Shown here: piece by piece, positions 1 to 63,650 of the stretch | Layout: each line of letters starts with the position of its first letter | How positions within the stretch are numbered: position 1 is the first letter of the stretch | From: Psococerastis gibbosa | Taxonomy: Eukaryota; Arthropoda; Insecta; Psocodea; Psocidae | Reading direction: 5' to 3' | Length of the DNA: 64,000 nucleotides | NCBI GenBank assembly: GCA_963971405.1 | Contig: OZ020489.1 | Location: forward strand, 46,082,510 to 46,146,509 | Notes under the pieces: model-generated | Database searches by the model: none | What the model saw: the letters and a program-made list of their open reading frames with translations, nothing else | Told to the model about the DNA's origin: nothing | Program-made: the position numbers and the translations under genes

Positions 1-66
1 TCCAGCCAGTTCCAGCTTCCAGCCAGTTCCAGTTCCAGCCCATTCCAGTTCCAGTTCCAGCCTCCA
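1..66 (+). repeat. TTCCAG-type hexamer repeat at the element 5' side
   Basis: Imperfect repeats of TTCCAG/CCAGTT fill the left edge. The gag frame is open through them to position 3 with no stop and would encode a Gln/Pro/Phe/Val-rich stretch. No ATG in that frame is seen before 207, so this may be untranslated leader or part of a longer Gag whose start is outside the window. Confidence 0.6.
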
Positions 67-206
67 GAACGTCTCATCCGGCCATAGGCGGTGGAAACCA
101 CCCCGGAGCAGCTACATTCACCGCAGCAGCACAGCCACAACCATTGCAGCTACAACCGCTACAGCTACAACTGCTACAGCCACCTACACCCACGGCTACA
201 ACCAAG

Positions 207-974
207 ATGACAGGCCCTCCTAGTACGATGGCAGTCTCGGTCAAGCTTCCACCCTTCTGGACACAGTCGGCCAACCTGTCACCGGCACTGTGGTTCACTC
301 AAGCGGAGGCTCAGTTCGCACTTGCTGGGGTCACAATGGAAACGACGAAATATTACCACGTCCTTTCAGCGCTCGACCAAAGTACCCTCAGCGAGATCTC
401 AGATTTGTTAGCTGCCCCAGTACCAGTAAACCCATACACTGAGCTAAAAACGCAATTAATCCAACGAATGAGTCTTCCAGCAAGCAGTCGCATTCAGCTA
501 CTAATGTCGGAAGACATAGGGGACAAAACTCCCAGCTCTTTTCTCCGGAGACTGCGGGCCCTCACAGAGAAAGCCATATCAGACTCGGTTTTACGCACCA
601 TTTGGACGTCTCGCCTCCCGCACGCTATACAATTGGCAATCATCGGTCATGATCACCTGTCACTAGGTGACGTCGCGAACCTCGCCGACAAGATGGCCAC
701 CATCAATTCAGCAACACGTGACCGGATTCATGAGTGCACAATGGCCCCTGTGGACCTATTGAAGACGTTAACAGAGAACGTCGCGGCTCTACAGGCACAG
801 TTCGCCGACAGATACGGACAACGTGCCACACAGCCACGGTTCCAGCGCCAGTTCCGTTCACCAGCGCCTAAACAAGACCCAACTTGGTGTTTTTACCACC
901 AAACCTATGGGAGGAAGGCCAGAAAGTGCCAGCAGCCATGCAGATTTCCGAAAAACGACGATCGCAGCCAGTAA
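207..974 (+). CDS. gag: Gag of CsRn1-like Ty3 retrotransposon
   Basis: This is the structural capsid/nucleocapsid protein that packages element RNA in cytoplasmic particles. I chose the first in-frame ATG (207), giving about 255 residues; the frame itself is open to the left window edge. The N-terminal part contains a capsid-like stretch beginning KLPPFW with a [12 protein letters not shown] motif, typical of arthropod CsRn1-type Gags. The C-terminus has a zinc knuckle of the form C-x2-H-x9-C-x3-C (Cys228, His231, Cys241, Cys245), the unusual CHCC type rather than CCHC. The stop is TAA at 972-974. The last 90 bases overlap the pol frame, which lies in the -1 frame, so Pol is presumably made as a Gag-Pol fusion by frameshifting. 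Upstream of residue 1 the frame encodes a low-complexity Gln/Pro-rich extension that may or may not be translated. Confidence 0.85.
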
Positions 975-3900
975 AGGCAGGGCCTGCCTGCGCCACTACA
1001 CACCTGCTTAAAACCTCACATCGCCTTCTTATCACGGACCCTTGCACCAAGATACGTTATCTCATTGACACAGGGTCCGACATCTGCGTTTTTCCACGTG
1101 CCCGTCTCAACCTACCGCTCCGTCGTACTCAACTCGAGCTGACTGCCGCCAATGGCACAATCATCAATACGTACGGAACAACAGCTCAACAACTGGACCT
1201 GGGATTACGACGCAGTTTCCGTTGGAATTTCATCATTGCCGATGTCACGCAACCCATCATCGGTGCAGACTTTCTCGCAGCCTCTAATTTGCTGGTGGAT
1301 CTCCAGAACTCAAAGCTGATCGACGGGACAACGCATCGCAAGGCGAACCTGTGTCAAAGCCCCTCCAAGCAACCTAGCGTTTCTACCTTAACAATACCGC
1401 ACAGTACCCCGGCCAGTCTAAAAGTAATAATTGAGGAGTTTAGCGACCTCACGCGGCCGAGACAACCCACAGACCAGGTCAAACACTCCACGGTCCACTA
1501 CATTAGAACGACAGACGGACCTCCCGTCTCCGCTCGCCCACGCCGGTTGGCCCCGGACAAGTTTATTATCGCCAAAAAGGAGTTCAACGACATGATCCAG
1601 ACCGGCGTATGTCGTCCGTCCGACAGCCCATGGGCCTCACCATTACACCTAGTACCTAAAAGCGACCATTCATGGCGCCCATGCGGGGACTACAGACGGC
1701 TCAATGCTCGAACAATTCCTGACGCGTACCCAGTCCGCCACATCGCAGATTTCAGTGCAGAATTGCGAGGAAAAACCGTATTCAGCAAAATAGACCTGGT
1801 CAAAGCATTCACCCAGATACCAGTTTCCAATGGTGACATTCCAAAGACAGCAATAAATACTCCGTTCGGCCTTTTCGAATTCCCATTCATGACATTCGGT
1901 CTTCGCAATGCTGCTCAAACCTTCCAACGCTTCATGGATAACATCCTACGCGACCTCCCGTGGGCATATTCATACATCGACGACGTACTGGTTGCATCGA
2001 GTGATAAGCAGGAGCACGAATCACACCTACGTCAACTCTTCCAACGATTCCGAGAATATGGCCTAGTCATTAATCCTAGCAAGTGTACCCTCGGCGTTGG
2101 GTCAATCAGCTTTCTTGGTTACCTCGTGTCAGCAGAAGGCACACAAGCCCTACCAGACAGGGTAAAGGCACTCACTGAATACCCTCTTCCAAAGACATTC
2201 AAAGATCTACGCCGTTTCCTTGGCATGATTAACTACTACCGCCGGTTCCTACCAAATGCAGCCAACGAACAAGCACCACTCAACACGTTGTTATCTGGAG
2301 ACAAGGTAAAAGGGAACGCTACGATACCATGGACAACAAAGCTTACCGAAGCTTTCAGCTCATGCAAACACAGTCTGGCACGCATCACCCTACTCGCGCA
2401 TCCAGATCATACGGCTCCGATTGCACTAGTCACAGATGCATCAGACACCAGTATCGGAGCTACAGTCCAACAACGGATCAACGATCATTGGCAGCCATTG
2501 GCATTCTTCTCGCAGAAACTTAAAGAAAACCAACGAACATGGTCCGCCTACGATCGCGAATTGCTTGCGGTACACGACGCCATTCGTCATTTCCGTTACC
2601 TGCTAGAAGCGCGCGCTTTTGTCGTGTATACCGATCACAAACCGTTGACGCACGCTTTTCAGAATCCAAAAACAAGTTGCTCACCTCGCCAAATGCGGCA
2701 AATGGAATTCGTCTCTCAATTCACCACGGACATCCAATACATCGCTGGGCAGGACAACTTGGCCGCTGATGCATTCTCAAGAATCGAAGCAATCTCTACT
2801 CCCGTATCTCCTGAGCAACTTTCTTCTGCTCAGAAAGACGACAGAGAACTCAAAGAGCTTCGGTCCAGTAGAAAGACGTCCCTCATCCTCGTTGATGTTC
2901 CCATTCCGGGCTCTGATTCAGTCCTTACGTGCGATTCTAGTCAAGACATACAACGCCCATTTGTGCCCAAACCATTACGTCGACAACTTTTCGAGCACCT
3001 ACACAGCCTACATCACCCAGGAATAGCAGCGTCTGCTAACCTGGTTGCCCAACGCTACATATGGCCTTCTATCCGTAAGGATTGCCGCGCTTGGGCTCGT
3101 CTGTGTGTCAACTGTCAATTGTCCAAGATACATCGACACACCCTCACTGCGATTGGAACCTTTACTCAGCCTGACCGACGGTTTCAGCACATACACCTCG
3201 ACATTGTAGGCCCATTACCACCGTCGGAAGGCTACACGTATTTGTTAACACTCGTTGACCGTTTCACGCGATGGCCGGAAGCCGCTCCTATGATGAACAT
3301 CACCGCCGAAAACGTCGCCAGAACCCTCATTTCCTGCTGGATCAGCCGGTTTGGGTGCCCGGAGACAATTACTACAGATCGCGGCCGACAGTTTGAGAGC
3401 CATTTGTTTGCTGACCTGGCCCGATTATGCGGATTTCACCATGCACGGACTACCAGTTACCACCCTGCATCCAACGGCATGGTAGAGCGTATGCACCGCT
3501 CACTCAAAGCCTCCATTATGTGTCATGCCAATGACAAATGGACGGAAGCCCTTCCGCTAGTTTTACTGGGCATGCGCGCCACTCTTAAGAAAGATCTTCA
3601 AGCTTCTCCAGCAGATCTGGTCTATGGTGAACCATTAAAACTACCAGGACAGATGCTGACAACTCCTCCTTCAAATCAGAGTCCGGCGGACACTCTCATC
3701 TCACTTCGAAGGAAATTCGACTCACTACGCCCCACTCGCGTCAAGAGACACGGGGCTCATCAAACATTCATCCCACAAGACCTTGCCAAGGCCACGCACG
3801 TTTTCGTGAGACAAGACCACGTCCGTGCTTCCCTCGAACGTCCTTATGCGGGACCATTCCCTGTGTTAAGTCGCACCGACAAAACAGTTACGATTTCAAG

Positions 3901-4147
3901 CCGCGGTCGTGCGGTTACTGTGTCAATGGACAGGGTCAAGCCGGCCTACATTAATGCCAGTACAGACGAACCGTCTCACCAGTCTACGATCAACCCCCCG
4001 CATCAGCATCCTGCTCAAGATAAACCTCAGGAGAAGGTCTCCTCACCACTTCCTGCCACTGACGTCGTGCCGACACCACCGACTCGCACCACTCGCTCAG
4101 GTCGTCACGTCCACGTTCCACGACATTTCTCCGACTTCCAGTCTTAG
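884..4147 (+). CDS. pol: Pol polyprotein (protease, RT, RNase H, integrase), CsRn1-like
   Basis: This polyprotein copies element RNA into DNA and integrates it. The frame is intact for about 1,087 codons. It opens at 872, and position 884 is only a TTG, so no independent start is evident; expression as a Gag-Pol fusion is likely. Domains in order, numbered from 884: aspartic protease with DTGSD at residue 62; reverse transcriptase with YIDD at 364-367; RNase H with a TDAS motif (Asp518) and a later YTDHKPL motif; integrase zinc finger with His707/His710-711 and Cys741/Cys744; integrase core Asp773, Asp832, Glu868, an exact D,D(35)E spacing. The C-terminus ends in an Arg-rich TRSGR stretch followed by HVPRHF, a tail common in this clade, and there is no chromodomain. 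All catalytic residues are present, so the enzyme set may be functional. Confidence 0.9.
950..956 (+). promoter_or_regulatory. Candidate -1 ribosomal frameshift heptamer G AAA AAC
   Basis: In the gag frame the codons read CCG AAA AAC, giving the near-canonical heptamer GAAAAAC 16 bases before the gag stop. The pol frame opens only at 872 (a TAA lies at 869-871), so the shift must fall within 872-974. The first position is G rather than A, which departs from the X XXY YYZ rule. A run T TTT TAC at 890-896 is a weaker alternative. Confidence 0.4.
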
Positions 4148-4156
4148 GAGGGGGGT
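4148..4156 (+). other. Polypurine tract of the Ty3 element
   Basis: GGAGGGGGGT directly follows the pol stop and lies two bases before the TGTGGGG start of the 3' LTR. That is the expected place of the plus-strand primer. Confidence 0.7.
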
Positions 4157-4158
4157 AA

Positions 4159-4545
4159 TGTGGGGACCACTTAGTCCCACATGTGTAATAACCAGTCTGC
4201 TTCCAGCTTCACCTTTTTCCCGGTAGATGGCGCTGTTCACATTCAGATAATTCAATATTCCTCAATCTTCCTTTTACGTATTTATTTCTCTTATTCAATA
4301 ATATCTTTAATCTACCCTCTGTGTCTCATCAGCTCCTTTAGCTGTGGACACAGAGTTGGTTTTTCTATATGGAAGCAGGCTGGATCAAATTCAATATTAA
4401 TTGTAAGCATGTATCGTTCTCGTCTCACAGCTCATATTGTAACCACTGTGTGTTAAATTACTCTAACTTGAGTCGAAGCACTGCAATACAAACCAATTCA
4501 AGTCTACACTGCCTATTCAATTGCATCGTCCTTCGACTAGCTACA
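4159..4545 (+). repeat. 3' LTR of the Ty3 element
   Basis: It starts TGTGGGGACC, with a short self-complementary opening (GGGGACCACTTAGTCCC). The end is placed at CTACA (4541-4545) because it gives a TG...CA LTR of about 387 bp. The 5' LTR is outside the window, so the right boundary is a guess; the left boundary is firm. Confidence 0.6.
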
Positions 4546-4635
4546 GGTCAATAGAATTTGGTATCCAGCCTTAAAGAAGACTACAGCAAAGAAACTGGTG
4601 TCATCATCCGGAAATCAGGTTGAGGTAGTAGGGAG

Positions 4636-4696
4636 CCAATCAGGAGCGAGGATGACTCCGCCTCCACCCCCCAACACCCCGCATCTTAGTATAAAT
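4636..4696 (+). promoter_or_regulatory. CCAAT - GC box - TATA promoter module
   Basis: CCAATCAG at 4636-4643, CTCCGCCTCCACCCC at 4656-4670 and TATAAAT at 4690-4696 are spaced like an RNA polymerase II promoter. A start about 30 bases after the TATA box would lie near 4720, so the transcript would carry the hammerhead-like motif in its leader. GC and TATA boxes recur in the minus-strand copy at 63247-63285. Confidence 0.5.
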
Positions 4697-4767
4697 TTCA
4701 GAGCACAACCTCCTGCCCTCACAGTCGCTGCTGAGCCTCCGAGATACAATCTTAGAAGTCTACGCAG

Positions 4768-4812
4768 TTCCACTGAAGATGTCGACCGCAGATGTTGACG
4801 AAACGTTTGGAA
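4768..4812 (+). ncRNA. Hammerhead-like ribozyme motif (minimal, Penelope type)
   Basis: Stem I pairs TTCCA (4768-4772) with TGGAA (4808-4812). The core is CTGAAGA (4773-4779) and GAAA (4800-4803). Stem II pairs GTCGAC (4781-4786) with GTTGAC (4794-4799) around loop CGCAGAT. Stem III is the two-base ACGT palindrome (4803-4806), and the predicted cleavage follows T4807. The deviation is one extra T (4780) between the core and stem II. Such short stem III hammerheads are thought to act as dimers. Self-cleavage is inferred, not shown. Confidence 0.5.
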
Positions 4813-4875
4813 GTTCACTTTCACTTCGACCACGGCCCATCAGCCCGGATTCTACTGGTTCCTCATGGATTCAGA

Positions 4876-5209
4876 TTGACTATCCATCTCTTCGTTCGGG
4901 CTCAGGTGAGGTGGTAAGCAATCCGTGTTTTAACGGACAACAGGTTGAAAGGGCACTTTTCCCATTACATGTATAGAGTAAAAAAATACACAACTTTTCA
5001 ACAATTCCAACAAAATGTAACCGACATGAATTTTCTCGTTAGATTTTTTTTTTTAATATTTTTTTAAGGGCGTTTGCAAGTTCTAACTTGCTTTTACGCC
5101 CGCCGCGTGTGGTTTTCCCTAGTTATATTTGGGTCATCAGACCAGAGGAGGAAATACACTTGCTGCAGCCGTTTTGTTTTCATTGTCGCTCAGAAGATCT
5201 GCGAGTGAT
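4876..5209. other. No gene recognised
   Basis: This is AT-rich sequence with a poly-T tract near 5046-5056. It may include the decayed end of the minus-strand relic that follows. No motif could be assigned. Confidence 0.4.
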
Positions 5210-6365: not shown

Positions 6366-6483
6366 ATTAAAAAGCATAAAACTAACTAAACATTAAAAAA
6401 AAATAATAATAATAACAGAACAAACTGCAATTATTTGGTTTTCATAATAAATTGGGGGTTTTTATAGGCAGGAACAACCTGAA

Positions 6484-7328
6484 AGAACCTGTCCGAGTTT
6501 ACTCGAACATACTTTCCAATTTATCAATTAGTAGATATAGAAAAGAAGTAATTTCATGGTAAATAATTTTCCTATGGTTAAAATTCAGGTATCTCGGGAG
6601 GGGAGGGGTTGTCCACCTGACGTCACTGGAGGTGAGGTAAATTCTAGATAGGTCAGACCAACACATTACCACACAGTAATAATAGCAGGGCACGCAACGC
6701 ATTTGAGTGTGAATTTTCTATAATTTCTTCAAAAATAATTTTTTGCACAGAAGTTTTGGGAAAACAACATGTTTGATTTTGTTACTCCATTGAACACCTA
6801 AAACATAACTGAAGGTAGAAATCATCGATAGAAAGGTTTCACAAAAAAATTATTTTTTAGTCATTTTTCATGAAAATTGAGTTATTTTTATTTTTTTACC
6901 CCCAAAAGCAAACTATCAAGGGGCAAGTGACCCCCGCATTTTATTAACAATAATAAGGGCTACAATATATGTGAATTGAAATGAAATCGTTGGAGCCGTT
7001 TCAGAGAAATAATTTTTGTAGACTTTTTTTTTATTTTTTTGAAAATATCCCCCCAAATTAAGTTAGGCCAAAAAAAAAAATAGTCTCTAGGTATGATTTT
7101 TTTGAACCTACATGCCGAATTTCATCAAAATCGGGAGAGTAGTTTGCCCGGAAATAGATGAACAGACAGAGTGACAGACAGACAGACCGACAGACAGACA
7201 TTTCGTAAAAACCACTTTTTTTTGGTTCCTGGGACCTTAAAACCTGTAAATCCGTTGAAATCTCGGAGTCGTAAATTTCGACCATCACAAAGCTTTCCTT
7301 ATACTACGTATAAATTGGAAAGCAATAA
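6484..7328 (-). mobile_element. Family A interspersed repeat (INE-1/Helentron-like), short form
   Basis: In family orientation it begins TTGCTTTCCAATTTATACG with a hairpin (GCTTTCC...GGAAAGC), then GTCT/GACA microsatellite, an AT-rich body, a TGACGTCA site (6618-6625), and ends with ATAAATTGGAAAG-type sequence and the hairpin CGAGTTTACTCG before ACCGG-like ends. This copy lacks the central GGGTCCGGACCC module of the long form. It is noncoding. Confidence 0.75.
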
Positions 7329-7389
7329 CGCTGGTTTATCAACTTTTTGACGTAATCTCTATCGTTGCCACATGTGAGAAGTCTTTCTC

Positions 7390-9254: not shown

Positions 9255-9392
9255 CGATGAACAGACAGACAGACATTTTTTAAAAACTTTTTTGGGTTCA
9301 AAACTTGTAATTCCGCTGAAATCTCGGAATCGAACATTTTGACCATCACAAAGACTTTCTTATACTGCGTATAAATGGGAAAGCAATAACGT
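9255..9392 (-). repeat. Family A 5'-end fragment abutting a hammerhead-type repeat
   Basis: It carries the GACAGACA microsatellite and the terminal GGGAAAGCAATAACG end of family A. The next repeat (9393 onwards) begins directly at its terminus. Confidence 0.65.
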
Positions 9393-9640
9393 CATCACCC
9401 GGAAATGAGGTTGAGAAAGCAGGGTGCCAATTAGGGACTCAGCTTGCTGTAAATTTCGGTGCACATCCCCTTGGCCAACCAGTTGCTGCTCACCCTCCGA
9501 GATACAATCTTAGAAATATACGCATTGCCACTGAAGATGCCAACCGCAGATACGGATGAAACGTACGGTTATACGCTTTCAGATTGACCACGGCCTATCA
9601 TCACGGTTTCTACTGCTTCATCAAGGATTTGAGAATTCTT
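9393..9640 (+). mobile_element. Penelope-like terminal repeat, copy 2 (decayed)
   Basis: Alignable with copy 1: CCAATTAG, the GAGATACAATCTTAGAA block, CTGAAGA (9531-9537), GAAAC (9558-9562) and GACCACGGCC. The GC box is lost and the TATA box has become TGTAAAT. Both hammerhead stems have mismatches, so this copy is probably inactive. Confidence 0.6.
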
Positions 9641-13561: not shown

Positions 13562-13717
13562 ACCCACATATTCTAACACCGAAACATAAGGGAGATGTCA
13601 ACATTTCCAGCTAAATTGCTCAGGAATTAATTTCACAAATAATCCAAGCATTGATTATCAACAGCTGCTAAATGTCATATCAGTCAATTTCATTGAAACA
13701 TCTTTTTAATGAGGAAA

Positions 13718-13756
13718 GGGTAATTCCAAACGTTGCGTCAACATCTTCAGTGGTAC
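13718..13756 (-). repeat. Fragment of the hammerhead-type repeat
   Basis: The minus strand reads CCACTGAAGATGTTGACG followed by CAACGTTTGGAA: the hammerhead region with stem II collapsed to one strand. The flanking parts of the repeat are not recognisable. Confidence 0.45.
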
Positions 13757-13839
13757 TCCGTAGTATGGGCGGTAAATTGGTGGTTCTGAGCTATGCTATT
13801 AAGCGAATTAGGCGACAACTTAAAGCCCCACGTTTCTGT

Positions 13840-17765: not shown

Positions 17766-17799
17766 TTTTATTTTGGACTACTCACTATTGGAGAATGTA

Positions 17800-17962
17800 A
17801 CTGCAAAGGCTTTCACGGCCGGAGTCAAATGAAGAACCAGTAGAATCCGGGCTGATGGGCCGTGGTCGAATTGAAAGTGAACTTCCAAGTTGGAAGTTGG
17901 AACTTCACTTTCAATTCAACCGCGGCCCATCAGCCCGGATTCTACTGGTTCTTCACTATTGG
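17800..17962. repeat. Inverted pair of hammerhead-type repeat 3' parts
   Basis: Arms 17831-17888 and 17897-17954 are reverse complements at about 55 of 58 positions, with an 8-base centre. Each arm begins with TTGGAA, the sequence just after the predicted hammerhead cleavage point, and runs outward through GATTCTACTGGTTCTTC. The left arm continues through TCCGGCCGTGAAAGCC. Transcribed, it would form a long hairpin. Confidence 0.75.
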
Positions 17963-18009
17963 AGATTTCACCTTCAAAATTGCTAAAAAAAATTCTTAGG
18001 ATTATCTTT

Positions 18010-23959: not shown

Positions 23960-25125
23960 AAGAGCCGATGGAGATGCCAAATGAAGGGACTACCACCTCA
24001 CACCCATACTATATAATATTTAGACCAATGACCAGCCCACCATGTGATTCATCAAACATTTCGTATATGCTGGTGATACAGCTGTTGCGGCCAAGAGCGA
24101 CTGCTTTGAAGACGTCCAAGAAAAATAATTAGACCTTGCTCTCGGTACTCTCGCACGATATTACAAGGCGAACCATCTTAAACCAAATCCATCTAAGACT
24201 GAAGTTTGTGCGTTTCATCATCTTTCATCTTTCATCAGCCAGAGATGCTAACAGAAAACTGAAAATTACTTGGGAAGGAGTGACCCTAAATCAAAACGAC
24301 CACCCAAAGTACCTGGGAGTGACACTGGACAAGACCCTGAGCTACAGAAGTCATTGTGAAGCCACCAAAATGAAAGTAGCATCACGCAACAGCATCTTAA
24401 AGAAACTCAACATGGGGAGCGCTACCTAGCACACTGAGAACATCAGCAATGGGTCTCTGCTTCTCGGCCGGGGAGTACGCAGCACCGGTGTGGTTTAATT
24501 CATCACATGCCAAGCAGACGGATGCCTCTCCGAACGAAACTGAGCGCATCATCACTGGGTGCCTTACACCCCTTCAGAAAATGTATCCGATCGCTGGTAT
24601 CGCTCCCCCAGCTATGTGACGGTCCACCGCTGCTGCTGTAGAACAAACCAAAGAAATGTCCGATCCGAAACATGTCATGTATACGACAAAAGACCCGCAC
24701 CGCACCGCACGTCTCACATACAGGAAAAACTTTTTGCAATCAGTGAAGCCCGTATCAACGACAGTACAAGCGTCTTGAATGAATGCATGGAAGCGGCTCC
24801 TCCCCCAAGTGATTGAGCCAAAAGAAGAACTGATGGCGGGCCACAATCGCCCACACCCAATCTAGCGCACCGCGCACCCTCAACCGACTAAGAACTGGTT
24901 CTCTCTGCAAAACCACCGCTACCAGATGGGGCTTCATAGTTCATCGCTGAGAACGACACGGCATGCGAATGCGGAGAGACCCAAGACGCGGCACACATGC
25001 TGGTGTGCCGACTGCTGTCTTCACCTTGCACAGCAGCTGACCTAGCAGAAGCTAACGGCAAGGCCGTCCAGGCCAGTACCTACTGGGTAACCCTTTTAAC
25101 GTGTTCCGCCTTACACCGCCGACAC
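23960..25125 (+). pseudogene. Non-LTR retrotransposon RT/C-terminal region, decayed
   Basis: Motifs in order, across shifting frames: an ILYNI block and NDQP, then VYAGDTAVAAK (about 24062-24095), where the catalytic pair of the usual YADD reads GD; YYKANHLKPNPSKTEVCAF; HPKYLGVTLDKTLSYRSH (about 24303-24356); TERIITGCLTP; and a terminal cysteine cluster C-x-C-(x)n-H-x3-C (about 24960-25010). This is the layout of animal LINEs of the jockey/CR1-like assemblage; the exact clade is unresolved. The coding stretch with the longest open frame is 24136-24429. Stops and frameshifts throughout make it a relic. Confidence 0.75.
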
Positions 25126-35455: not shown

Positions 35456-36453
35456 ATTGTTGCTTTCCAATTTATACGCATAAATTGGAAAGCTTTGTGA
35501 CGGTCAACATTTTCGACTCCGAGATTTCAACGGGTTTACACGTTTTGAGGACCCAGGAACCAAAAAAAGGGGTTTTTACGAAATGTCCGTCTGTTTGTTG
35601 CTCTGTCGCTCTGTCTGTCTGTTCATCGATTTGCGGCAAACTACTCGGTGGATTTTCATGAAATTTGGCATGTAGGTTCATAAAAATCATACCTCAGGAA
35701 CAATTTTTTGGGGTAAATCATTTTGGGGGGTTTTATCCTCAAAAAACTAAAAAAAACGTCTAAAAAAATTATTTCTCAAAAATGGCTCCAACGATTTCTT
35801 TTGATTTCACATACTCGTATATTGTAGTCGTTATTAATGTTAACAGAATGCGGTTAGTCACTTGCCCATTGATAGTTTGCTTCTGGGGGTAAAAAATAAA
35901 AAGAAGTCAATTTTCTTGAAAAAAGACTAAAATATAATTTGTCCCCTGAACCTTTCCATCGGTGATTTCTACCTTCAAGTATGTTTTAGGTGTTTAATAG
36001 AGTGAAAAACCAAACCGGTTGCTTTCCCAAAAAAAAATATTTGGTTCTGTGCAAAAAATTATTTTTTGAAGAAATTATAGTAAATTCACGGTCCAATACA
36101 TTGGGTGCCCTGCCATTGTTACTACTGTTATAATGTATTAGTCTGTTCGTTCCATCGATCAATTCAGTGATTTAGGATAGGGATTAACCAAGGTCGTAGA
36201 CATGGCTGTTCTCCTGGGGGTCCGGAACCCCCCCCCCCCCTAAGTGTTTGCAGCGTGTACTAGATGAAATGGAGTTTTAATGGTTTTTTAATATATTGAG
36301 GTTACGTCACCTCCGGTGACGTCAGATGGACCCCCCCCCCTCCGAGGGATCCGAAATTTAACCATAGGGAAACTATTTACAATGAAATTACTCATTATCC
36401 CTATCTACTAATTTATAAATGCGAAAGCATGTTCGAGTAAACTCGGACCGGTT
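35456..36453 (+). mobile_element. Family A repeat, full-length long form
   Basis: This is the best reference copy. It has the 5' end TTGCTTTCCAATTTATACG, GTCTGTCTGT microsatellite, the AT-rich body with GCTTCTGGGGGT, a central module with GGGGGTCCGGAACCC and a C run, TGACGTCA at 36317-36324, and the 3' end GCATGTTCGAGTAAACTCGG then ACCGGTT. The 15-base TGCTTTCCAATTTAT at the start matches the complement of the near-terminal ATAAAT(T/G)GGAAAGCA, with some decay here. It is noncoding. Confidence 0.8.
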
Positions 36454-39495: not shown

Positions 39496-40164
39496 TTAAG
39501 TGGCTCCAGAATTATAACTTATTTCCATTATGATAAGGGATTCAGCTAGCAAAGACGAACAAATACAACATAATATCCAAAATCTCAAAATATAATTGTT
39601 TTTATGAAAAACATGGCGGCCAAGAAATTAGAAAGTAAACACTTGCAAACTTGAGACAGAGACTTAACCTTTGTCTCGTAATAGTTGGAATTACGCGGGT
39701 GATTCCACATTATAATAAATGAAATCTGCATTTATTATTTACATGGACGCAAGCAAAATAAGCGAATATACAATGCTACAAATTAGCATATGTACCTACT
39801 GCATGTCCCCTAGGCCTTAGGACAACTAAGTCATTCGCTGCACATTAGTTAGTCAATTGAAATTATGCAGCTCGATGTGATACCTTTGTCGTGGCAGGGT
39901 GCTCTCGAGTGTGCGACATGCATTAGTCCAGTTGACTCGGTGCGTTCGTTATTCCCGTTGTTTGGGGTACAATGAGCGCCCCCTGCTGGCCCGTGACACA
40001 GTCTTTAGCTCCATCTCCACTACTTGACCCTACTATGGTACTCAGGCGCATGGTGAGAAAGCACTCTGTTTTTATTGCGCGGTAGATAACCTAAACAACT
40101 CATATTCTCATGATTAAAAATTACAATTACGCACTATCAAGTTGCGAACATCCGATACAATCGT
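39496..40164. other. No gene recognised
   Basis: Unassigned sequence; no repeats or motif-bearing frames were identified. Confidence 0.4.
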
Positions 40165-41022
40165 TATTGCTTTCCAATTTATACGTAGTATAAGGAAAGC
40201 TTTGTGATGGTCGAAATTTTCGATTCCGAGATTTCAACGGATTTACACGTTTTGAGGTCCCAGGAACCCAAAAAAGTGGTTTTTACAAAATGTCTGTCTG
40301 TCGGTCTGTCTGTCTGTTCGTCGATTTCCGGGCAAACTACTCAGTGGATTTGAGTGAAATTTGGCATGGAGGTTCACAAAAATCATACCTCGGGACCATT
40401 TTTTTTTTTTTGGGCTAACTCAATTTGGGGGGGTTTTATTTTCAAAAAAACTCCAAAAAAACGTCTAAAATAAATATTTCTCAAAAACGGCTCCAACGAT
40501 TTCTTTTCAATTCTCGTAGATTGTAGTCGTTATTAATGTTGACAAAATGCGGGGGGTCGCTTGCCCCTTGATAGTTTGCTTCTGGGGGTAAAAAAATAAA
40601 AATAACTAAATTTTAATGAAAAAGTGACTAAAAAATGCGAAACCTTTCTATCGATTATTTCTACCTTCAAGCATGTTTTAGGTGTTAAATTGAGTAACGA
40701 AACCGGATAGGTTGCTTTCCCAAAAAAATATTTGGTTTTGCCCAAAAAATTATTTTTTGAAAAAAATGATAGAAAATTCGCGCTCAAATGCATTGCATGC
40801 CCTGCGATTATTGCTGTGTGGTAATTAATGTGTTTGTTTGACCTATCGAGAATTTACCTCACTTCCAGTGACGTCAGGTGGACAACCGCCCCCCCCCCCC
40901 CCCCCGAGATATCGGAAATTTAACCATAGGAAAAATATTTGCCATAAAATTACTAATTTTCTCTATCTAATAATTTTGATAAATTGGAAAGCATGTTCGA
41001 GTGAACTCGGACCGGTTCTTTT
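40165..41022 (+). mobile_element. Family A repeat, full-length short form
   Basis: Clean terminal structures: GCTTTCCAATTTATACGTAG...GGAAAGC hairpin, GTCTGTCTGTC microsatellite (40288-40320), TGACGTCA (40869-40876), a C run, and the 3' end AAATTGGAAAGCATGTTCG then CGGACCGGTTCTTTTA. The central GGTCCGG module is absent: GACCTATCGAGAATTTACCTC joins the halves, as in 6484-7328. Confidence 0.8.
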
Positions 41023-51045: not shown

Positions 51046-52217
51046 TACCTAATCTATATATAATCTTAAATAAAAAGAAAATAAAAGAAAAAAAGCTTGT
51101 GGCCAACCAATCACAATTAACATTCGGGTTTGACGTCAATTCTATGTAACTACGAGTATTATATGGACGAAAGAGATATATAATTGTGCCATAGAATTGA
51201 AATTTTATGTGTACGCCTTCGTTCCTTAATTTGTGCCTGTTGGTATAAATATAGATATGCATTGCCTCACAATTCATTATCAAATTCATCCCCTCCCCTG
51301 CCAAATCCCCAAATTTGCCCGAGTGCTTTGAACGCTAAACATTCTGTAAAACTCATTGTTCATGTTGACAAAATTGGTGCATTTAGACTATTTGGGGCAC
51401 CAATTGGAAAATGAAAGTCCAGTTACGGGGAATTCATATATAGCCAAACTGCCGTGCTGTGTCGTGTCGTTTGCAGTGTAGTGGACCAGACTAAGCCGAG
51501 CAACCCCTTTACCGGCAACGTAAAAAGGCTGCAAAGGCTTATATCCGCGAGGGGGTGGCCATCGCGGCTCACACAGTGCCACGACTTGCAAGTAATACGA
51601 AACGAGTTGTAATATGTTTGGTTGACCTACTGAGGCAGGGGCTACAATTTTTAATTACTAATGCAAGTACGTTACTGTTACTGTTACTGTTACTGCGAGC
51701 GTTCACCGTGGCCGAGTGGCCCAAAATTAGCCCATTGTCAAAATATCGACAACTTTCATTCTTTATTCTTTCATGCAAAGTTTGGGCACTAAAGAAATTA
51801 ATTAAATAAAATCAGAAACTTAGTGTTTCGTCATCTTCAATTCATCAGTGTACAGTAGATAATCTAGTAAATTAGAAAGGAAAGTTCCGTTGCCATGGGA
51901 AATTTGTTTAGTTTTATATTTTTTTTAGGCATTTCCCACACATCTCTCTGTGGTTTTCTGGTTTAAACTCGGTCGGAGAGTACGATCTTTTAAAAGGTAA
52001 ATAATCCATTATCTAACATTTTTGTTACATAAGTTTCTCTCTATCACCAACGATTTTGGCTCTTGCGGATGAGGTTAAAAATGGCCCCTATTTGACTGCA
52101 TCCTTTAATATTGTCATTGTCTCACCCAGTGAAATTAGCATAAGAAACTGGAAATGAAAACAGCGATGAAAACGAAGGTAATTTCTTATTAGTTTTTGGG
52201 GTAATTAGGACTCTCCT
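51046..52217. other. No gene recognised; (GTTACT)4
   Basis: A GTTACT hexamer is repeated about four times at 51671-51695. A GTGGCCGAGTGG A-box-like motif near 51709 has no partner B box. Frames of up to about 100 codons have no known motif. CTCCT at 52213-52217 is the left target duplication of the BEL/Pao element. Confidence 0.45.
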
Positions 52218-52506
52218 TAGTTGTAACAAAACACGTTACAACATGAAACAGCAAGAGGCAGCACAGCTCTAGTCAGTCGCCATTTTACTCCCACGTAGTT
52301 CGTTCGGATATTCCCTCTGTTCTCTCACATTATTAATTCATCTAGTTTTAGTCTGGTATAAATGGTAACAAAATCTCTACTCCGTCGTGCGCCTAGAGTT
52401 AAACAGCAAGATAGTCTACGAAGCTGGGCGCCCAGACCATCTGATCGACCGCACCGTTAATAAAGGTAAGGCAAACGTCTGAGGAGAGATTAATTAATCC
52501 ATACTA
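52218..52506 (+). repeat. 5' LTR of the BEL/Pao element
   Basis: TATAAA at 52357-52362 and AATAAA at 52459-52464 lie about 100 bases apart, as expected for promoter and polyadenylation signals. It is identical to the 3' LTR for its first roughly 275 bases. Confidence 0.85.
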
Positions 52507-52511
52507 AATTA

Positions 52512-52525
52512 TGGTCCATCGAGTA
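52512..52525 (+). other. Candidate primer-binding site
   Basis: TGGTCCATCGAGTA starts with the TGG expected opposite a tRNA CCA end and lies five bases after the LTR. I cannot name the tRNA. Confidence 0.4.
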
Positions 52526-52773
52526 AAAATTTTGATAATTCTATTTTCTAATTTTAATTACAGTCCACTGTTTTCTCTGATTTTCTGTGCTGCCGCTTGC
52601 CTGCTGTAGGCTTTTTTACGACTAGGCCTATACTATAATAATACGCATACAGTAGGTACTTGTATCAGTCAAGTACCTGCTAGAATCTAATCTGTTTTTC
52701 TTTGCTACTTTTAGGGCTACGCTTTTTCTGTGGCTCTCTATAATTAATTTTACTATTATATTTCTAATCAAAA

Positions 52774-53079
52774 ATGAGTGTCAGTGATAGTGATCATAAT
52801 GACGCAAGTCGTGATGACTTTACAACCGAACAAATTTTAGATTCGCTCCAGGCCCAGCTAAACGATTTATTCGCTAGAGTGACGAGCACTAGGGACCTCG
52901 CTATGTCCTATGCTAAAACTAGAGTGTCTCTACTTAAGCAAAAGTATGACATGTGTGTCAAGCTCAGGAGCGAGTTAAGTTATTTGTCAAAAAAGATACG
53001 GAGATACAATACGATTGTTACGGATGAATCGTCAAAACTAAACATCGACGCTACAGTTAAAAGTTTCGATGATATATAG
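52774..53079 (+). CDS. gag: BEL/Pao Gag N-terminal frame
   Basis: An ATG-started frame of 101 codons beginning MSVSDSDHNDASRDD is followed by a helical, Lys/Arg-rich region likely to be coiled coil (TTEQILDSLQAQLNDLF). It matches the N-terminal part that precedes the DUF1759-type Gag region in BEL/Pao polyproteins. It ends in TAG (53077-53079), whose last base is the first base of the next frame, which is offset by -1. Family members normally have one continuous frame, so the split looks like a small indel in the TATATA run at 53073-53078, though a programmed mechanism cannot be excluded. Confidence 0.75.
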   Translation: MSVSDSDHNDASRDDFTTEQILDSLQAQLNDLFARVTSTRDLAMSYAKTRVSLLKQKYDMCVKLRSELSYLSKKIRRYNTIVTDESSKLNIDATVKSFDDI

Positions 53080-56000
53080 TGGAATCCGTCACGGTCCTAT
53101 ATTACGACGCCTACGACAAGTCAATCGCATCACGATCTAATCAGTCTAATCCTACTTCTATTTCTACACCTACTCAGTCTAATATACAACTACCGCGAAT
53201 CCAAATGGAAAAATTTACAAATGATGTAAAAGATTTTCAGAGATGGTTTTCTCTTTTTCAGGCAGTGTATGATTCTCAAACCAACCTATCAGGGTCGGAA
53301 AATTTTTATTATTTGCGGACTCTCTTAATTGGTGAAGGCCTAAATATTGTGTCCCAATTTCCATTAACCAACCAAGGCTACGTTGACGCCATTTCTGCAT
53401 TAAAAGAAAGGTTCGAATGCCAGCGTACCTTGGCCGCTCTCTATACAAACGAATTGTTCAATTTCGTTCCACAAAAGAAGGCTACACCCGAGTCCCTCCA
53501 AAAGTTTTTAGAGGTACACTCTGAAGGAGTTACAGCTCTAAAAAGTCTGTCGTCAGTCGTGGACCTTGGCGATTTTTTATTACTGTCGATTGCCGTCCGC
53601 AATTTAGACCCACTAACTCGCCGCCTGTTCGAACAGCAGCTGTCGGCAGGGGTCATACCTAAGTACAAAGAAGTAATTGATTTTGTATCAAAACAATTTC
53701 AAACTTTAACTTTACTGTCCCAGGAATCTGTTACTACGCATTCTAAGACCTCGGATTCTAGCCCAGGTCACAGTGCGCTTCGAAGTAATCGCACTCTTAA
53801 GGTGACATCGCATACTACAAATGCGAAGAAACCAACTCCGAAATTACCTAATTTCGTGAGTCCCTGCATTTTCTGCTCCAATTCGACACATAAAATTTCA
53901 ACTTGTGCCGAATTTCTCAGTTTACCTGTTTCTGACCGCATCAAATGGGTGACCTCTAACCTAAGATGCCCTGCCTGCATGTCGCTTACGCATTCAAAAA
54001 TAAGCGAGTGCAAAAGCACAAAATCCTGTTACTACTGCCAATCTAAAATGCACAATAGTGCTATCTGCGATAAACGCACTGTAAGCTCAGCTACTGTTCA
54101 ACCAATCGTCACACAGTCACCCAAGACGCTGTCGTGTGTAACGACTTCCTCTCAGCCAAAAAATGAGTTGCACAACCTCATTGGCACAGCTGTCGTCCAC
54201 GTAAAGGACAATCTAGGCTACACGCACGAAGTGTGCCTATGCTTAGATAGTGGCAGCGAAGAAACACTTATCTCTCTGCCCACTGTTAAAAAACTAGGTC
54301 TAAACTTTTCAAAAAAGAAATTGTTACCTATTTATGGGCTAGGTGATTCATTAAAGAACACCATAGGCTCTACTGTACTCTCGCTTAGATCGAGATTTAA
54401 TCCCGAATTTATCTTCGAAATAAATGCTAAAATCATGAAAACTATCTGCCAAAATTCTACAAAAGTGACATTAAGTAATGATTTCACAACATACGTTAAG
54501 AATTATCAGCTAGCTGACCCAAAGTTTTTTAATTCAAAACCATATGACATTCTATTGTCCGTCGGAGATACCGTCGAATTAATGCAAAATAACGAAAAAT
54601 TCCTAAATATTCCGAATATTCGACACCCTCCTAACTGGCCTTATCCAGTACATACTCCGTTTGGATACGTAATTATGGGAAAAATTCCCACCTTAAGCGG
54701 CTCCGATCCCAAGGTTTTCATGGCTCAATCCGACATTCAACTAGCCGACATCATGGAAAAATATTTTGAGCGCGAAACCATTCCAGCTTCCGATCATGAG
54801 ACCTTGCCTCCATGTGAAGACGATTTATATGTCGAACAACATTTTCTAGACTCTTATAAGCGAGACACCGATGGTTCGTTTATAGTGTCATTACCATTTC
54901 GTTCCGATATTTCCTCGTTAGGCAACAATCGAGCCCGTGCAATTGCATGCTTCCGTGCTATGGAAAGTAAACTTTTAAAAAATCATGAGCATTACGCTAC
55001 TTATAAAGAGACATTACAAGATTACCTTAATAAAAATGAAATCTCGCGTTCTCATGTTACGTCGCAGTACTTACTAAACCAAAAGATTGTTTTTAAGAAA
55101 TCAAGCGGGAAACCAAAGCTTGTCTTTGTACCTACTCTAACTGCTCCTGGCAATAATTTACATTTAAATTCCATTCTACATACAGGTCCGAAACTGCAGA
55201 GAGACATAAATTATGTTCTGATAGCCTGTAGATTATCTACTGTATGCCTCATGTGCGATATCAAGACGTTTTATCGAAGTATTCGACTTCGCCCTTCGGA
55301 TTCTGAAAAAATTCACATTTTGACACGTCTCGACGAGAACGGTCAGGCTTCCCCTGACGGTTCAGTAACTGAAAGCAAGTTAAATCACCTCTGCTATGGT
55401 CTTACTTGTAGCCCATATATTGCACTACGTTGTGTAAAGCAACTTTCTCTGGAAAATGAAAAAGAATTTCCCATTACTACGTCATTTTTAAATAAAAACC
55501 GATTTATTGATGACCTCGTATATTCATGCGATTCTGTTCAGTCGTGCATCAAAATTCGAGATCAACTGATTAAAATTCTTAAAAAAGGGAATTTTCACTT
55601 ATGCAAATTTATAAGCTCACATCCAGAAGCCCTTAACGGTCTTCCAGATTCAGACTTAGGTTCGATCTCTTCCGACGTAAATCTTTCTAATTCTACTATG
55701 CCAGTTCCGGTTTTAGGTATTCTTTGGAACCCCGAGACTGACATTTTCAAGTTCGAATTTCAACCATTTACTGGTACTGTAACACGTAGGTCATGCACGA
55801 GTTACTTAGCTCGCACGCATGATACTATGGGCCTCTTGCACCCATGTGTGTTTTTTATGAAAACTTTAATTCAATCTCTATGGGGCAATTTTCCCAACAC
55901 GGGGTGGGACGATGAAGTTCCAGAACCGTACAAGTCACAATGGTTAACATTTACTAATGAAATGCCTATATTGTCGAAAATCAGAATCCCTCGCTGCATT

Positions 56001-58124
56001 ACCAACCAATCATCTACCCATTGGTTATCTATAATGTGTGACAGTAGCCAAAAAGGATACTCATCAGTTGCCTATCTCACATCGAAATCCCCCGAAGGAT
56101 CGTTTCATAGTAACTTACTAATAGCCAAAAGTAAGCTCTGCCCCCAGAAAATAATTCGTACTATGCCCGAATTGGAGTTATCAAGCATTGAACTTGGAGC
56201 AAAATTAATAAAATGGTTCATTGACGGTCAATTGCCTATCCAAATTCAAAATATTTGTATATTCTCAGATTCCAAAATAGCGCTTTCATACGTTCACGTA
56301 CCTGTACAAAAATTGAAAATATTCAATGCTAACCGCGTTTCTCGAATTATGGAAATTGTGTCTCAATCGACAGTTCCAGTATCGTTCCACTACTGTACCA
56401 CCTCTGAAAATGCAAGCGACCTTTGCACCAGAGGTCTATACCCATCGCAATTGCTGGAAAATTCGCTATGGTTTTCAGGGCCTAGCATACTGAGGGAAAA
56501 CTTTCCACCCCCTCCATTTTCCCCAAGCGACTGCAAAAATCTGCCCGGTTTAAAACCGGATAGTTTAATTTCCTTGAAATTAACCCAATCACCAGATATG
56601 AATATTTTTATAAATCTGATAGAAAAGTTTTCAAAATTTTCTATTTTACAAAGAACTACTGCTTATGTATTACGATTCATCTCAAATTGTCGAAAAACGA
56701 AATCTGAACGCATAAAATCGTCTCTCACAGTAGACGAGCTCAATCTTGCTACCCACACTATAGTGAAAATTCAACAGGAACACAGTTTTCCCGATGAACT
56801 TTCGCGAATAAACAAAGGGAAACCACCCACTGATAAGTTTGCGAAACTTACACCGTTCATTGGTAAACATCAGATATTACGAGTGGCCGGTCGGCTGCAG
56901 TTAGCTAGTTTACCATACGAAACCAGGCACCCAATGATACTCCCCAAGTGTCATTTAGCCGTATTATTGTGCCGACTATATCACGCTCAATCCGGTCACA
57001 GTGGTACAAATCTCAGTACCTGCCTTCTAAAACAAAAGTTTTGGATAATCTCTGTACGATCAATAATGCGTTCTGTTATCTACCGTTGTTTTACGTGCGC
57101 TAAACTGAATCCTGTACGCCCATCTCCAATACAAGCGGATCTTCCCAGGTCCCGACTAACTCCCTGTTTTCCGTTTCGAGGTACAGTTTCGATAGACTGC
57201 TTCGGACCTTACCACGTAATACCAGGACTGCGCAGTTCTGGCAGGAAAAACCCACAGGCAAACATGAAAGTTTGGGGTATCATTTTCCTGTGCGATGCAA
57301 CACGGTGTGTGCACATTGAACATCTGTGTTCAATGACTATGGAGGATTTCCTCGACAGTGTCACCAGATTCACCTCTCGTAGGTCGCTTCCTTGCGAAAT
57401 CAGATCCGACCATGGTACAAATCTGATGGCGGGAGGGAAATTCATGTCCGAATGTGCGAAATTTCTAAATGATAATCAGGATGAAATTCTATCAGCTTTA
57501 GCTACGCGTTCTATAAAGTTCACTACAATACCTGTTGCGGCTCCTTGGATGGGAGGTTACGAGCCCCTCATAAAAGTCGCAAAGAATGTTTTAAAACGCT
57601 TACTTGTAGAACCATTACACCTACAAGATCTTATAACACTGTTTATTAATGTTGAAGGACTGGTCAACAGTCGGCCCTACATAGGCCCAACTCTGTTCGA
57701 CACTACAGACCCTGCATTAATATTGTCACCTAGTCATATGTTGACTGGAGGTCATCTCAATTCAGCACCCATTTTGGTGAACGATGAACCCATGCCCTTG
57801 CGTAAAAGATTTTACAAACTAAGAGCTATTATCCAAATATTCTGGAAAACCTTCCGTCGTGAAGTATTAAACACGTATATGCAAAAGCTTAAATGGCCGA
57901 AAGGTAATAACGCTAATGTCAAGGTAGGCGATCTCGTTTGGATTCCATCCCTAACAGGGAAGTTTTCAGTCCCAGGCTATTGGGGCTTAGGAATAGTTGA
58001 AAAGCTCTACCCAGACGCAAACAATGTGGCTAGAACCATAGACATTAAGACTCGAAGTGGAGTCATTAAACGGGCACTACGATCTATCGTTCTCGTACCC
58101 CGTCCCAATGTACTTGTAGAATAA
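53079..58124 (+). CDS. pol: BEL/Pao Gag-Pol polyprotein
   Basis: An uninterrupted frame of 1,681 codons provides capsid, protease, reverse transcriptase, RNase H and integrase. The frame opens at 53073 and the first start-like codon is GTG at 53079, so in this copy it lacks a conventional ATG start. Domains: DUF1759-type Gag (about residues 35-210, IQMEKFTNDVKDFQRWF); knuckles of the CX2CX4HX4C kind (PCIFC...; SCYYC...); DUF1758 aspartic protease with DSGSEE (Asp390); RT with FIDD at 809-812 in place of YxDD; Pao-type RNase H with MCDSS (Asp988); integrase HHCC (His1302, His1307, Cys1337, Cys1340); catalytic Asp1373, Asp1444, Glu1495; and a DUF5641-like C-terminus with GDLVWIPS and a W-rich stretch. 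All catalytic residues are present. Confidence 0.93.
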   Translation: MESVTVLYYDAYDKSIASRSNQSNPTSISTPTQSNIQLPRIQMEKFTNDVKDFQRWFSLFQAVYDSQTNLSGSENFYYLRTLLIGEGLNIVSQFPLTNQGYVDAISALKERFECQRTLAALYTNELFNFVPQKKATPESLQKFLEVHSEGVTALKSLSSVVDLGDFLLLSIAVRNLDPLTRRLFEQQLSAGVIPKYKEVIDFVSKQFQTLTLLSQESVTTHSKTSDSSPGHSALRSNRTLKVTSHTTNAKKPTPKLPNFVSPCIFCSNSTHKISTCAEFLSLPVSDRIKWVTSNLRCPACMSLTHSKISECKSTKSCYYCQSKMHNSAICDKRTVSSATVQPIVTQSPKTLSCVTTSSQPKNELHNLIGTAVVHVKDNLGYTHEVCLCLDSGSEETLISLPTVKKLGLNFSKKKLLPIYGLGDSLKNTIGSTVLSLRSRFNPEFIFEINAKIMKTICQNSTKVTLSNDFTTYVKNYQLADPKFFNSKPYDILLSVGDTVELMQNNEKFLNIPNIRHPPNWPYPVHTPFGYVIMGKIPTLSGSDPKVFMAQSDIQLADIMEKYFERETIPASDHETLPPCEDDLYVEQHFLDSYKRDTDGSFIVSLPFRSDISSLGNNRARAIACFRAMESKLLKNHEHYATYKETLQDYLNKNEISRSHVTSQYLLNQKIVFKKSSGKPKLVFVPTLTAPGNNLHLNSILHTGPKLQRDINYVLIACRLSTVCLMCDIKTFYRSIRLRPSDSEKIHILTRLDENGQASPDGSVTESKLNHLCYGLTCSPYIALRCVKQLSLENEKEFPITTSFLNKNRFIDDLVYSCDSVQSCIKIRDQLIKILKKGNFHLCKFISSHPEALNGLPDSDLGSISSDVNLSNSTMPVPVLGILWNPETDIFKFEFQPFTGTVTRRSCTSYLARTHDTMGLLHPCVFFMKTLIQSLWGNFPNTGWDDEVPEPYKSQWLTFTNEMPILSKIRIPRCITNQSSTHWLSIMCDSSQKGYSSVAYLTSKSPEGSFHSNLLIAKSKLCPQKIIRTMPELELSSIELGAKLIKWFIDGQLPIQIQNICIFSDSKIALSYVHVPVQKLKIFNANRVSRIMEIVSQSTVPVSFHYCTTSENASDLCTRGLYPSQLLENSLWFSGPSILRENFPPPPFSPSDCKNLPGLKPDSLISLKLTQSPDMNIFINLIEKFSKFSILQRTTAYVLRFISNCRKTKSERIKSSLTVDELNLATHTIVKIQQEHSFPDELSRINKGKPPTDKFAKLTPFIGKHQILRVAGRLQLASLPYETRHPMILPKCHLAVLLCRLYHAQSGHSGTNLSTCLLKQKFWIISVRSIMRSVIYRCFTCAKLNPVRPSPIQADLPRSRLTPCFPFRGTVSIDCFGPYHVIPGLRSSGRKNPQANMKVWGIIFLCDATRCVHIEHLCSMTMEDFLDSVTRFTSRRSLPCEIRSDHGTNLMAGGKFMSECAKFLNDNQDEILSALATRSIKFTTIPVAAPWMGGYEPLIKVAKNVLKRLLVEPLHLQDLITLFINVEGLVNSRPYIGPTLFDTTDPALILSPSHMLTGGHLNSAPILVNDEPMPLRKRFYKLRAIIQIFWKTFRREVLNTYMQKLKWPKGNNANVKVGDLVWIPSLTGKFSVPGYWGLGIVEKLYPDANNVARTIDIKTRSGVIKRALRSIVLVPRPNVLVE

Positions 58125-58223
58125 AATAACTCTGCATTCGAAAAAGATTGCAGATTAATGAGTTACATTTTTCTTATATTATTTATATTGTATATTTTGG
58201 TTTGCCAGTTTTACCCTCCATTT

Positions 58224-58235
58224 AAGGGGGGAGGT
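58224..58235 (+). other. Polypurine tract of the BEL/Pao element
   Basis: AAGGGGGGAGGT directly precedes the 3' LTR start TAGTTG. Confidence 0.8.
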
Positions 58236-58523
58236 TAGTTGTAACAAAACACGTTACAACATGAAACAGCAAGAGGCAGCACAGCTCTAGTCAGTCGCCA
58301 TTTTACTCCCACGTAGTTCGTTCGGATATTCCCTCTGTTCTCTCACATTATTAATTCATCTAGTTTTAGTCTGGTATAAATGGTAACAAAATCTCTACTC
58401 CGTCGTGCGCCTAGAGTTAAACAGCAAGATAGTCTACGAAGCTGGGCGCCCAGACCATCTGATCGACCGCACCGTTAATAAAGGTAAGGCAAACGTCTGA
58501 GGAGAGATTATTAGTCCACACTA
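58236..58523 (+). repeat. 3' LTR of the BEL/Pao element
   Basis: It matches the 5' LTR exactly except in the last 17 bases, where there is one missing A and two substitutions (TTAGTCCACACTA against TTAATCCATACTA). It is followed by the CTCCT target duplication. Confidence 0.85.
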
Positions 58524-59440
58524 CTCCTAGAAAAACATCGAGAAAAGAAAAAACCTGTTCATTTTGTGTTCGTGGACCTGGAAAAAGCCTATGATAGAAT
58601 ACCGAGAAGTTTAATCTGGGATGTGTTGGAAGTGACCAATCAGATACAACTTACAAGGGCAAGTGCCAGAAAGCCTTCTCTTCGCGGATGATATCCTCCT
58701 GGTATAGGAGACTTGCGAGAAGATATCGTGAGTACTCCCAGGCTGTGGGTAGAAACGATGGAGCACCAGGGGCTTAAAATGAATTTCAAGAAAAGTAAGA
58801 AAACAGAGTACATGGAATGCGTAAGCCAGGAAAAGTCGATAATCAAAACCTAGAGAAGGCCAAGACATTCAAATATCTGGGAGCAACGTTACGCGAGAAT
58901 GGCGGCTGTGGAGACGATGTAAGAGCACGGGTAACCTCAAGTTGGGCCAAGGGGCGAGATATGGCGGGAATCCTGAAGGATAGGAGAATGCCGAAGAAAC
59001 TGAAAGGCCGCATATACAAGCAAGTGGTGAGACCGTGTATGACCTACGGAGCGGAGTGTGGAGCGACGAAGAGAAACGGCAGCATGTGGCTGAGATGCGA
59101 ATGTTGCGTTACTGTCTGGGTTACAAAAAACGAGAACATCCGGGCGGAGATGCAAGTAGCACCTATCACCGATAAAGTCAGGGAACGAAGACTGGCGTGG
59201 TGGGGCCACACGCTCAGAAGAGAAGATGGGCACCTGTTACAACGTGTGAGGGACTACACGGTGGAGGGCCCAGGACGACCGAGAATGTCCCTTGAAACAA
59301 AAGTGAGGGAGGACCTCAGGACCCTTGGTCTCTCGCCGGATGATTCACAAAACTGAAACACCTGCAAGATCAAGATCCGTGCCGCCGACCCCGTAGGAGG
59401 GATAAGGCGCCGTTAAACTTAAGGTAAAGTAAGTAAGTAG
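58524..59440 (+). pseudogene. RTE-like non-LTR retrotransposon remnant
   Basis: The frame begins at the target duplication itself with LLEKHREKKKP, then VFVDLEKAYDRIPR, the usual RT block. A deletion follows, then LFADDILLV and a stop (about 58677-58709), KTEYME, FKYLGATLRENGG (58868 onwards), and an endpiece with RRLAWWGHTLRRED and GRPRMS, typical of RTE-type elements. The longest open part is 58817-59356. The AAGTAAGTAAGTAG tail (about 59427-59440) is the RTE 3' end. Deletions and stops make it inactive. Confidence 0.8.
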
Positions 59441-63370: not shown

Positions 63371-63650
63371 GTACTGTGCATCCTGCTAAGTTCAATGACC
63401 TCTAACACGATAGAGCCTACCCAAAAGGTCAGAATATAATATGCAAAACACTTTCATGTTTGGTACGAGTAAGGCAACTTTATGAGACGGTTATTAGCCA
63501 CGCAGCGGGGACTAGTCATACTCGGACTACAGCGAAGCAAAACCAGTACTTACAATGTGAAACCTCAAGTTACAGCAAGGTGGCGACCTAGGTTACAAGC
63601 CAAAGGCTGTAATGAGGGCTACCAAACCCGCACAATTTCCACCTACAAAA

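Follow-up and report, generated by a model that had tools for sequence, protein, structure and literature searches.

What kind of element joins promoter-like boxes to a very small hammerhead ribozyme motif within one repeat? The question is raised by positions 4585-4875 of a 64,000-nucleotide stretch of the insect Psococerastis gibbosa (GenBank assembly GCA_963971405.1, contig OZ020489.1, forward-strand positions 46,082,510 to 46,146,509), the whole of which is called the window here. A preliminary description of this unit, made from the letters alone, had spotted it correctly and somewhat over-read it. Judging from its sequence and from analogy with described elements, the unit is probably a solo pseudo-long terminal repeat (pLTR) of a Penelope-like element (PLE) of the Penelope/Poseidon kind. 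It is thus most likely an ordinary kind of element, with a family assignment that rests on its anatomy. The part worth following is a neighboring insertion with two tails at 17795-17952, termed the twin-tail insertion below, which lies outside the unit and is a possible footprint of the ribozyme site.

In the copy that defines the unit (c1, a putative solo pLTR at 4600-4862 on the plus strand), a CCAAT box (4636-4640), the GC element CCGCCTCC (4658-4665), and TATAAA (4690-4695) are followed on the same strand by the initiator-like string TCACAGTC (4719-4726). A minimal type I hammerhead motif (4768-4812, plus strand) begins 78 bases after the start of the TATA string and reads TTCCA-CTGAAGA-T-GTCGAC-loop-GTTGAC-GAAA-CGT-T-TGGAA. 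It consists of the stem I strands TTCCA (4768-4772) and TGGAA (4808-4812), the core string CTGAAGA (4773-4779), an extra T (4780) between A9 and the first pair of stem II, the stem II strands GTCGAC (4781-4786) and GTTGAC (4794-4799), the core string GAAA (4800-4803), and the stem III string ACGT (4803-4806), with the predicted cut between 4807 and 4808. All the boxes, stems, and core strings of the preliminary description were present at their given places. A scan for the architecture (CTGANGA, 0 to 2 bases, stem II, GAAA, T-H, and stem I, with a minimum of 4 pairs in each stem) returned one site on the two strands of the 64 kb, the c1 motif, and none in 100 dinucleotide shuffles. The boxes CCAAT, CCGCC, and TATAAA also occurred in this order once in the window, but the ordered trio was held by 7 of the 100 shuffles as well, so that the full promoter claimed earlier is present as boxes and its reading as a promoter is only moderately beyond chance expectation. 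In the copy c3 described below the GC element is absent and TGTAAA stands in place of TATAAA, and the copy c2 starts after the CCAAT position.

The claim that the unit is a repeat was borne out by self-comparison and a profile search, which together found five insertions in the window. The whole motif region is held by three of them, c1, c2, and c3. The similarity of c1 to c3 starts at 4600 and that to c2 at 4654; the 3' end of c1 at 4862 was set by analogy with the short end of the twin-tail insertion, and similarity to the other copies continues to about 4871. Copy c2 (63082-63287, minus strand) is a pLTR copy with a broken stem I and 89.9% identity to c1 over 208 columns, and sequence comparison of the copies revealed an inverted arm with an extended tail joined to it (63288-63372, plus strand). 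Copy c3 (about 9391-9628, plus strand) is an older pLTR copy with both stems broken and 78.3% identity to c1 over 180 bases. The remaining two are the twin-tail insertion and c4 (13714-13763, minus strand; profile match E = 1.4e-6), a decayed fragment in which the 5' strand of stem II and the loop fall in a gap. The hammerhead core (C3 U4 G5 A6 N7 G8 A9, G12 A13 A14 A15.1, U16.1, and H17) is complete in c1, c2, and c3, and c4 fails it with GCAA for GAAA. The window thus contains only partial, mostly decayed copies.

The extra base before stem II, which had been described as a departure from the canonical core, is indeed present and keeps stem II from directly adjoining A9, but it is not a random departure. 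T4780 is the T of an ATG (4779-4781) that overlaps the hammerhead core and whose A is A9, and the predicted cut after 4807 falls 26 bases past this codon. From the ATG, a frame of 65 codons (MSTADVDETFGSSLSLRPRPISPDSTGSS...; 4779-4973, plus strand) runs open across the core; it would encode the N terminus of a PLE protein to about codon 28 and flanking sequence beyond. The same frame stays open through the extended arms of the other insertions (...SGRESLC).

A splice-donor-like CAGGTGAG lies at 4903-4910, just past the repeat end and inside the open ATG frame. This string and the 65 open codons are what would be expected if a host gene family had its promoter and first exon here, with the ATG frame leading to the donor at 4903, but copy similarity stops before the donor-like string, the copies occur in both orientations, and inverted arms and target duplications are seen among them, which makes a host gene very improbable. 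A second open frame (4541-4795) passes through the c1 promoter and ends in the hammerhead (...PPRYNLRSLRSSTEDVDRRC), and a similar frame is found in c3 (...PPRYNLRNIRIATEDANRRYG); it is possibly meaningless. As the end of a PLE open reading frame (ORF) it was rejected, the differences from c3 being mostly amino-acid changing by eye.

The ends of the insertions also point to a PLE. In two of the five, c2 and the twin-tail insertion, inverted arms stand head to head and the target site is duplicated over 13 bp. The c2 insertion is flanked by CAGGAAGCACAGT and CAGGATGCACAGT (63069-63081 and 63373-63385; 13 bp with 1 mismatch). The duplication around the twin-tail insertion, TCACTATTGGAGA, is exact over its 13 bp (17782-17794 on the left and 17953-17965 on the right). 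In a chance control, a 13-mer with at most 1 mismatch was found in 1 of 400 trials on random flank pairs with a 25 x 60 search, an area smaller than that over which the c2 duplication was sought (35 x 100). Counted from the A of the ATG, the 3' end is at +82 when short and +120 when extended in c2, and at +84 and +122 in the twin-tail insertion, a distance of 38 bases in both insertions with inverted arms; the positions were counted by hand, and bases shared with the duplication make them uncertain by a few bases. What the window itself shows is the anatomy, the copies, their duplications, the two kinds of 3' end, and the chance controls for motif and promoter. A solo PLE end is supported because the motif is beyond chance, the insertions number five, and the ATG frame continues through the extended arms, and because of the ATG at the core with its 26-base spacing to the cut, the two 3' ends, the inverted arms, and the 13-bp duplications. 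These last features also strengthen the link to Penelope terminal repeats that the preliminary description had drawn.

Several observations weigh against the assignment to a PLE. Among frames of at least 65 codons, the 323-codon frame 3-971 excepted, no PLE reverse transcriptase (RT) or GIY-YIG frame was recognized by eye in the window, in agreement with the preliminary description. The ATG frame is closed by a stop at codon 11 in c2 and at codon 17 in c3, and no target duplication was found for c1 or c3 by the search used for the other two insertions. A protein database search with the 65-residue frame found no relative; a LINE-like control fragment of the window was equally fruitless (38 candidates, none at E <= 1e-5), so this null says little.

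The missing coding frame bears on another explanation, that of an independent nonautonomous ribozyme retroelement resembling retrozymes, in which PLE or other machinery acting in trans amplifies a promoter-plus-hammerhead unit. In its favor, no ORF follows the unit where it recurs, and no protein-coding element was recognized for it in the window. However, none of the five insertions is tandem, whereas the animal retrozymes are described, in the excerpted account, as tandem and equipped with canonical hammerheads (PMC7229834). The ATG, the tails, and the inverted arms are PLE features, and the lack of an ORF is explained by solo pLTRs, so that a retrozyme-like element seems improbable. The separate element spreading with its own promoter that had been proposed for this unit is unneeded, since solo pLTRs are described for PLEs in excerpts on Adineta Penelope elements (PMC3846280).

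Whether the motif of a PLE end of this kind still cuts is bound up with the twin-tail insertion. Its left arm (17795-17888, minus strand) carries the extended tail and its right arm (17897-17952, plus strand) the short one, and each has its inner end at the base matching 4807. Both arms start with TTGGAA, corresponding to c1 from 4807, one base before 4808, the first base past the predicted cut. Similarity to c1 ends there, the next base inward being C in the left arm and G in the right arm versus T in c1. The one extra matching T may be due to chance or may be an added base. Between the arms lie 8 filler bases (17889-17896) within a 19-base palindrome at the join, and for this reason the second arm may have been self-primed and the two arms are not necessarily independent. 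With ends spread uniformly over 100-290 bases, about 1-3% would be expected by chance to fall no more than one base from the cut, for a single event considered post hoc. The inverted arm of c2 begins 12-19 bases past the cut (partly by eye) and lends no support to a cut-site footprint. It is a tentative possibility, though a serious one, that the twin-tail insertion records hammerhead cleavage in vivo, with ribozyme-cut RNA copied from both nicked strands and the arms meeting at the cut. If so, PLE hammerheads with a start-codon U beside stem II would cut in vivo, the cut RNA would be usable as a template, and removal of the AUG would switch one transcript from message to template. The insertion would then exemplify a pattern by which the 5' starts of truncated PLE copies, collected genome-wide, could reveal cutting in vivo without experiment. 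If the footprint fails, what remains is routine transposon annotation.

A different explanation keeps the PLE end and takes the hammerhead for a relic that does not cut, the U between A9 and stem II, kept as part of the AUG, disabling a motif that would persist for its coding and leader roles. In the passages of a published paper that concern the core, two insertions (after A6 and near C3) lowered activity, but hammerheads are said there to tolerate another core insertion, U13a, as well as a U10.1-U11.1 mismatch (PMC3088659). The same passages have strict hammerhead filters rejecting mispairs next to the core (PMC3088659); with the extra base read as part of a start codon, such filters would drop motifs like this one. 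The covariance-model check proposed in the preliminary description returned no hammerhead, as Rfam gave no match over the whole window at gathering scores and five matches, none of them a hammerhead, over 4300-5200 up to E = 10. For Poseidon, insertion in vitro does not require cutting, hammerhead mutants still inserting, and no RNA reads end at the cut site (PMC11167929).

The copies themselves divide on this point. Both stems are intact in only one of the three whole-motif copies, c1; c2 has 1 mismatch in the 5 pairs of stem I, and c3 keeps 3 of 5 pairs in stem I and 2 of 6 in stem II, counting G-U. The sole pairing-preserving change is G-U to A-U in stem II of c2, in a set of copies too small for covariation. 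Stems varying without compensation had been named beforehand as evidence against a ribozyme, and they are found in stem I of c2 and in both stems of c3. Both look like decayed copies, because both have stops in the ATG frame, and they appear neither to prove nor to exclude ribozyme activity of the source element. Against a relic stand the intact stems of c1, the core strings of c3 (CTGAAGATG and GAAACGT), in which 16 of 16 bases are unchanged despite its overall divergence, and the end of the twin-tail insertion at the cut site. On balance, a relic that does not cut is unlikely but by no means negligible.

The hammerhead-like fold claimed earlier stands as a motif that is unique in the window, but its stem III, the 2-bp ACGT, lacks a loop and cannot form inside a single molecule. 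The 71-nt context around the motif folds no better than shuffles (z = +0.72). The isolated 45-mer forms 4 pairs of stem I and 7 of stem II, including U4780-G4800. When two 45-mers were cofolded, pairing ran across stems I and II and left the ACGU unpaired, which disfavors a dimer step, even though the ACGU of one copy can in principle pair with that of a second copy between molecules.

For a PLE end with a working hammerhead, the following course is conceivable, in which promoter activity, AUG use, cleavage, and the start of reverse transcription would be those of published PLEs. Transcription of an intact element in tandem arrangement would begin from the pLTR promoter, some 50 bases upstream of the hammerhead, and the start codon of the element protein would overlap the hammerhead core (CUGAAG-AUG). 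The short ribozyme might be completed by a second copy through the self-complementary ACGU, or by the protein of the element, and would then cut the RNA 26 bases past the AUG. Such a cut would separate the start codon from the frame, so that each RNA molecule would be either message or cut template, never both. On the nicked target DNA, reverse transcription would begin at about base 82-84 or 120-122 of the frame, and copying from both strands would yield the head-to-head arms and the 13-bp duplications.

Beyond the window, a scan of a viral contig collection with CTGAAGATG-gap-CGAAACGT gave 97 stretches, and a scan of a prokaryotic genome contig collection with CTGANGATG-gap-CGAAACGT gave at least 119. 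In 217 records (216 loci and the window), at least 219 motif instances were counted, at least 4 of them with five nested pairs after the ATG, including 2 of the window's own. Two of the loci, L126 and L140, were judged to be chance matches and not relatives of the motif, since on their flanks H17 or the first pair of stem I is missing. The tail pattern had 0 matches in the viral contig collection. Within the window, a match at 51825-51848 on the minus strand, without stems by eye, was taken as chance. Among the literature matches listed for the motif strings, none concerned retroelements by title.

Other mobile sequences surround the copies. Positions 1-4545 hold an LTR element, presumably Gypsy-like by its appearance, with a 1091-codon frame (872-4147) and a purine tract, its 5' part lying beyond the window; what is apparently its 3' LTR, a TG...CA stretch (4159-4545), ends about 55 bases before c1. 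A second LTR element (52217-58523), which we take to be BEL-like by appearance and which was evidently inserted recently, has LTRs at 52217-52506 and 58235-58523 that are 99.0% identical over 290 bases and a single open frame of 1683 codons. An unrelated repeat family at 6482-7330 has many partial copies in the window, e.g., 40162-41021 and 35457-36145. The fragments at 24133-24616 and 58799-59353 resemble, we assume from their appearance, LINE reverse transcriptase; a protein database search with the latter found no relative at E <= 1e-5.

Among the known systems comparable with the unit are the animal non-LTR retrozymes, according to the excerpted account units of about 300 bp that are repeated in tandem and have canonical type I hammerheads (PMC7229834). 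A type I hammerhead and a repeat of about 300 bp without protein are common to both, but the unit is not tandem and has a minimal hammerhead, a PLE-like tail, and a start codon. The pLTR of Penelope from Adineta vaga contains, according to excerpts of its description, a TATA string, a string resembling an initiator, and the opening codons of the ORF, 12 of them in the pLTR and 22 with a 31-bp optional tail on the inverted pLTR; pLTRs inverted head to head with palindromic joins, target duplications of 8-10 bp, and solo pLTRs also occur (PMC3846280). The word hammerhead was not found in the text of that paper (PMC3846280). TATA and initiator strings with first codons in the pLTR, head-to-head arms, a palindromic join, and target duplications recur in the present insertions, with the differences that the duplications are 13 bp long and that about 28 codons (40 with the tail) are included.

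In Poseidon of Anolis carolinensis, the hammerhead lies at the junction of pLTR and ORF with the ORF start at stem II, cleavage falls 26 bp downstream of the start codon, RT begins 111-118 bp inside the ORF with an optional tail of 30-40 bp, both target strands are cut and extended, and the ribozyme cleaved only in the presence of its protein (PMC11167929). Unlike in Poseidon, no ORF was seen behind the unit, no AC-rich stem-loop was recognized at its end, and the extended ends at +120/+122 lie beyond the RT start there. The position of the ATG at the core and stem II, the predicted cut 26 bases past the codon, and the optional tail of 38 bases agree with it.

Minimal type I hammerheads without a usable stem III are reportedly known from PLE pLTRs (Cervera and de la Pena in 2014 and Lunse et al. 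in 2017), and the small PLE hammerheads are said, in the title of the 2017 paper, to cleave as dimers. The motif in c1 resembles these in its type and minimal size and in lacking a usable stem III, and pairing of ACGU with ACGU between copies would fit the dimer cleavage named in that title.
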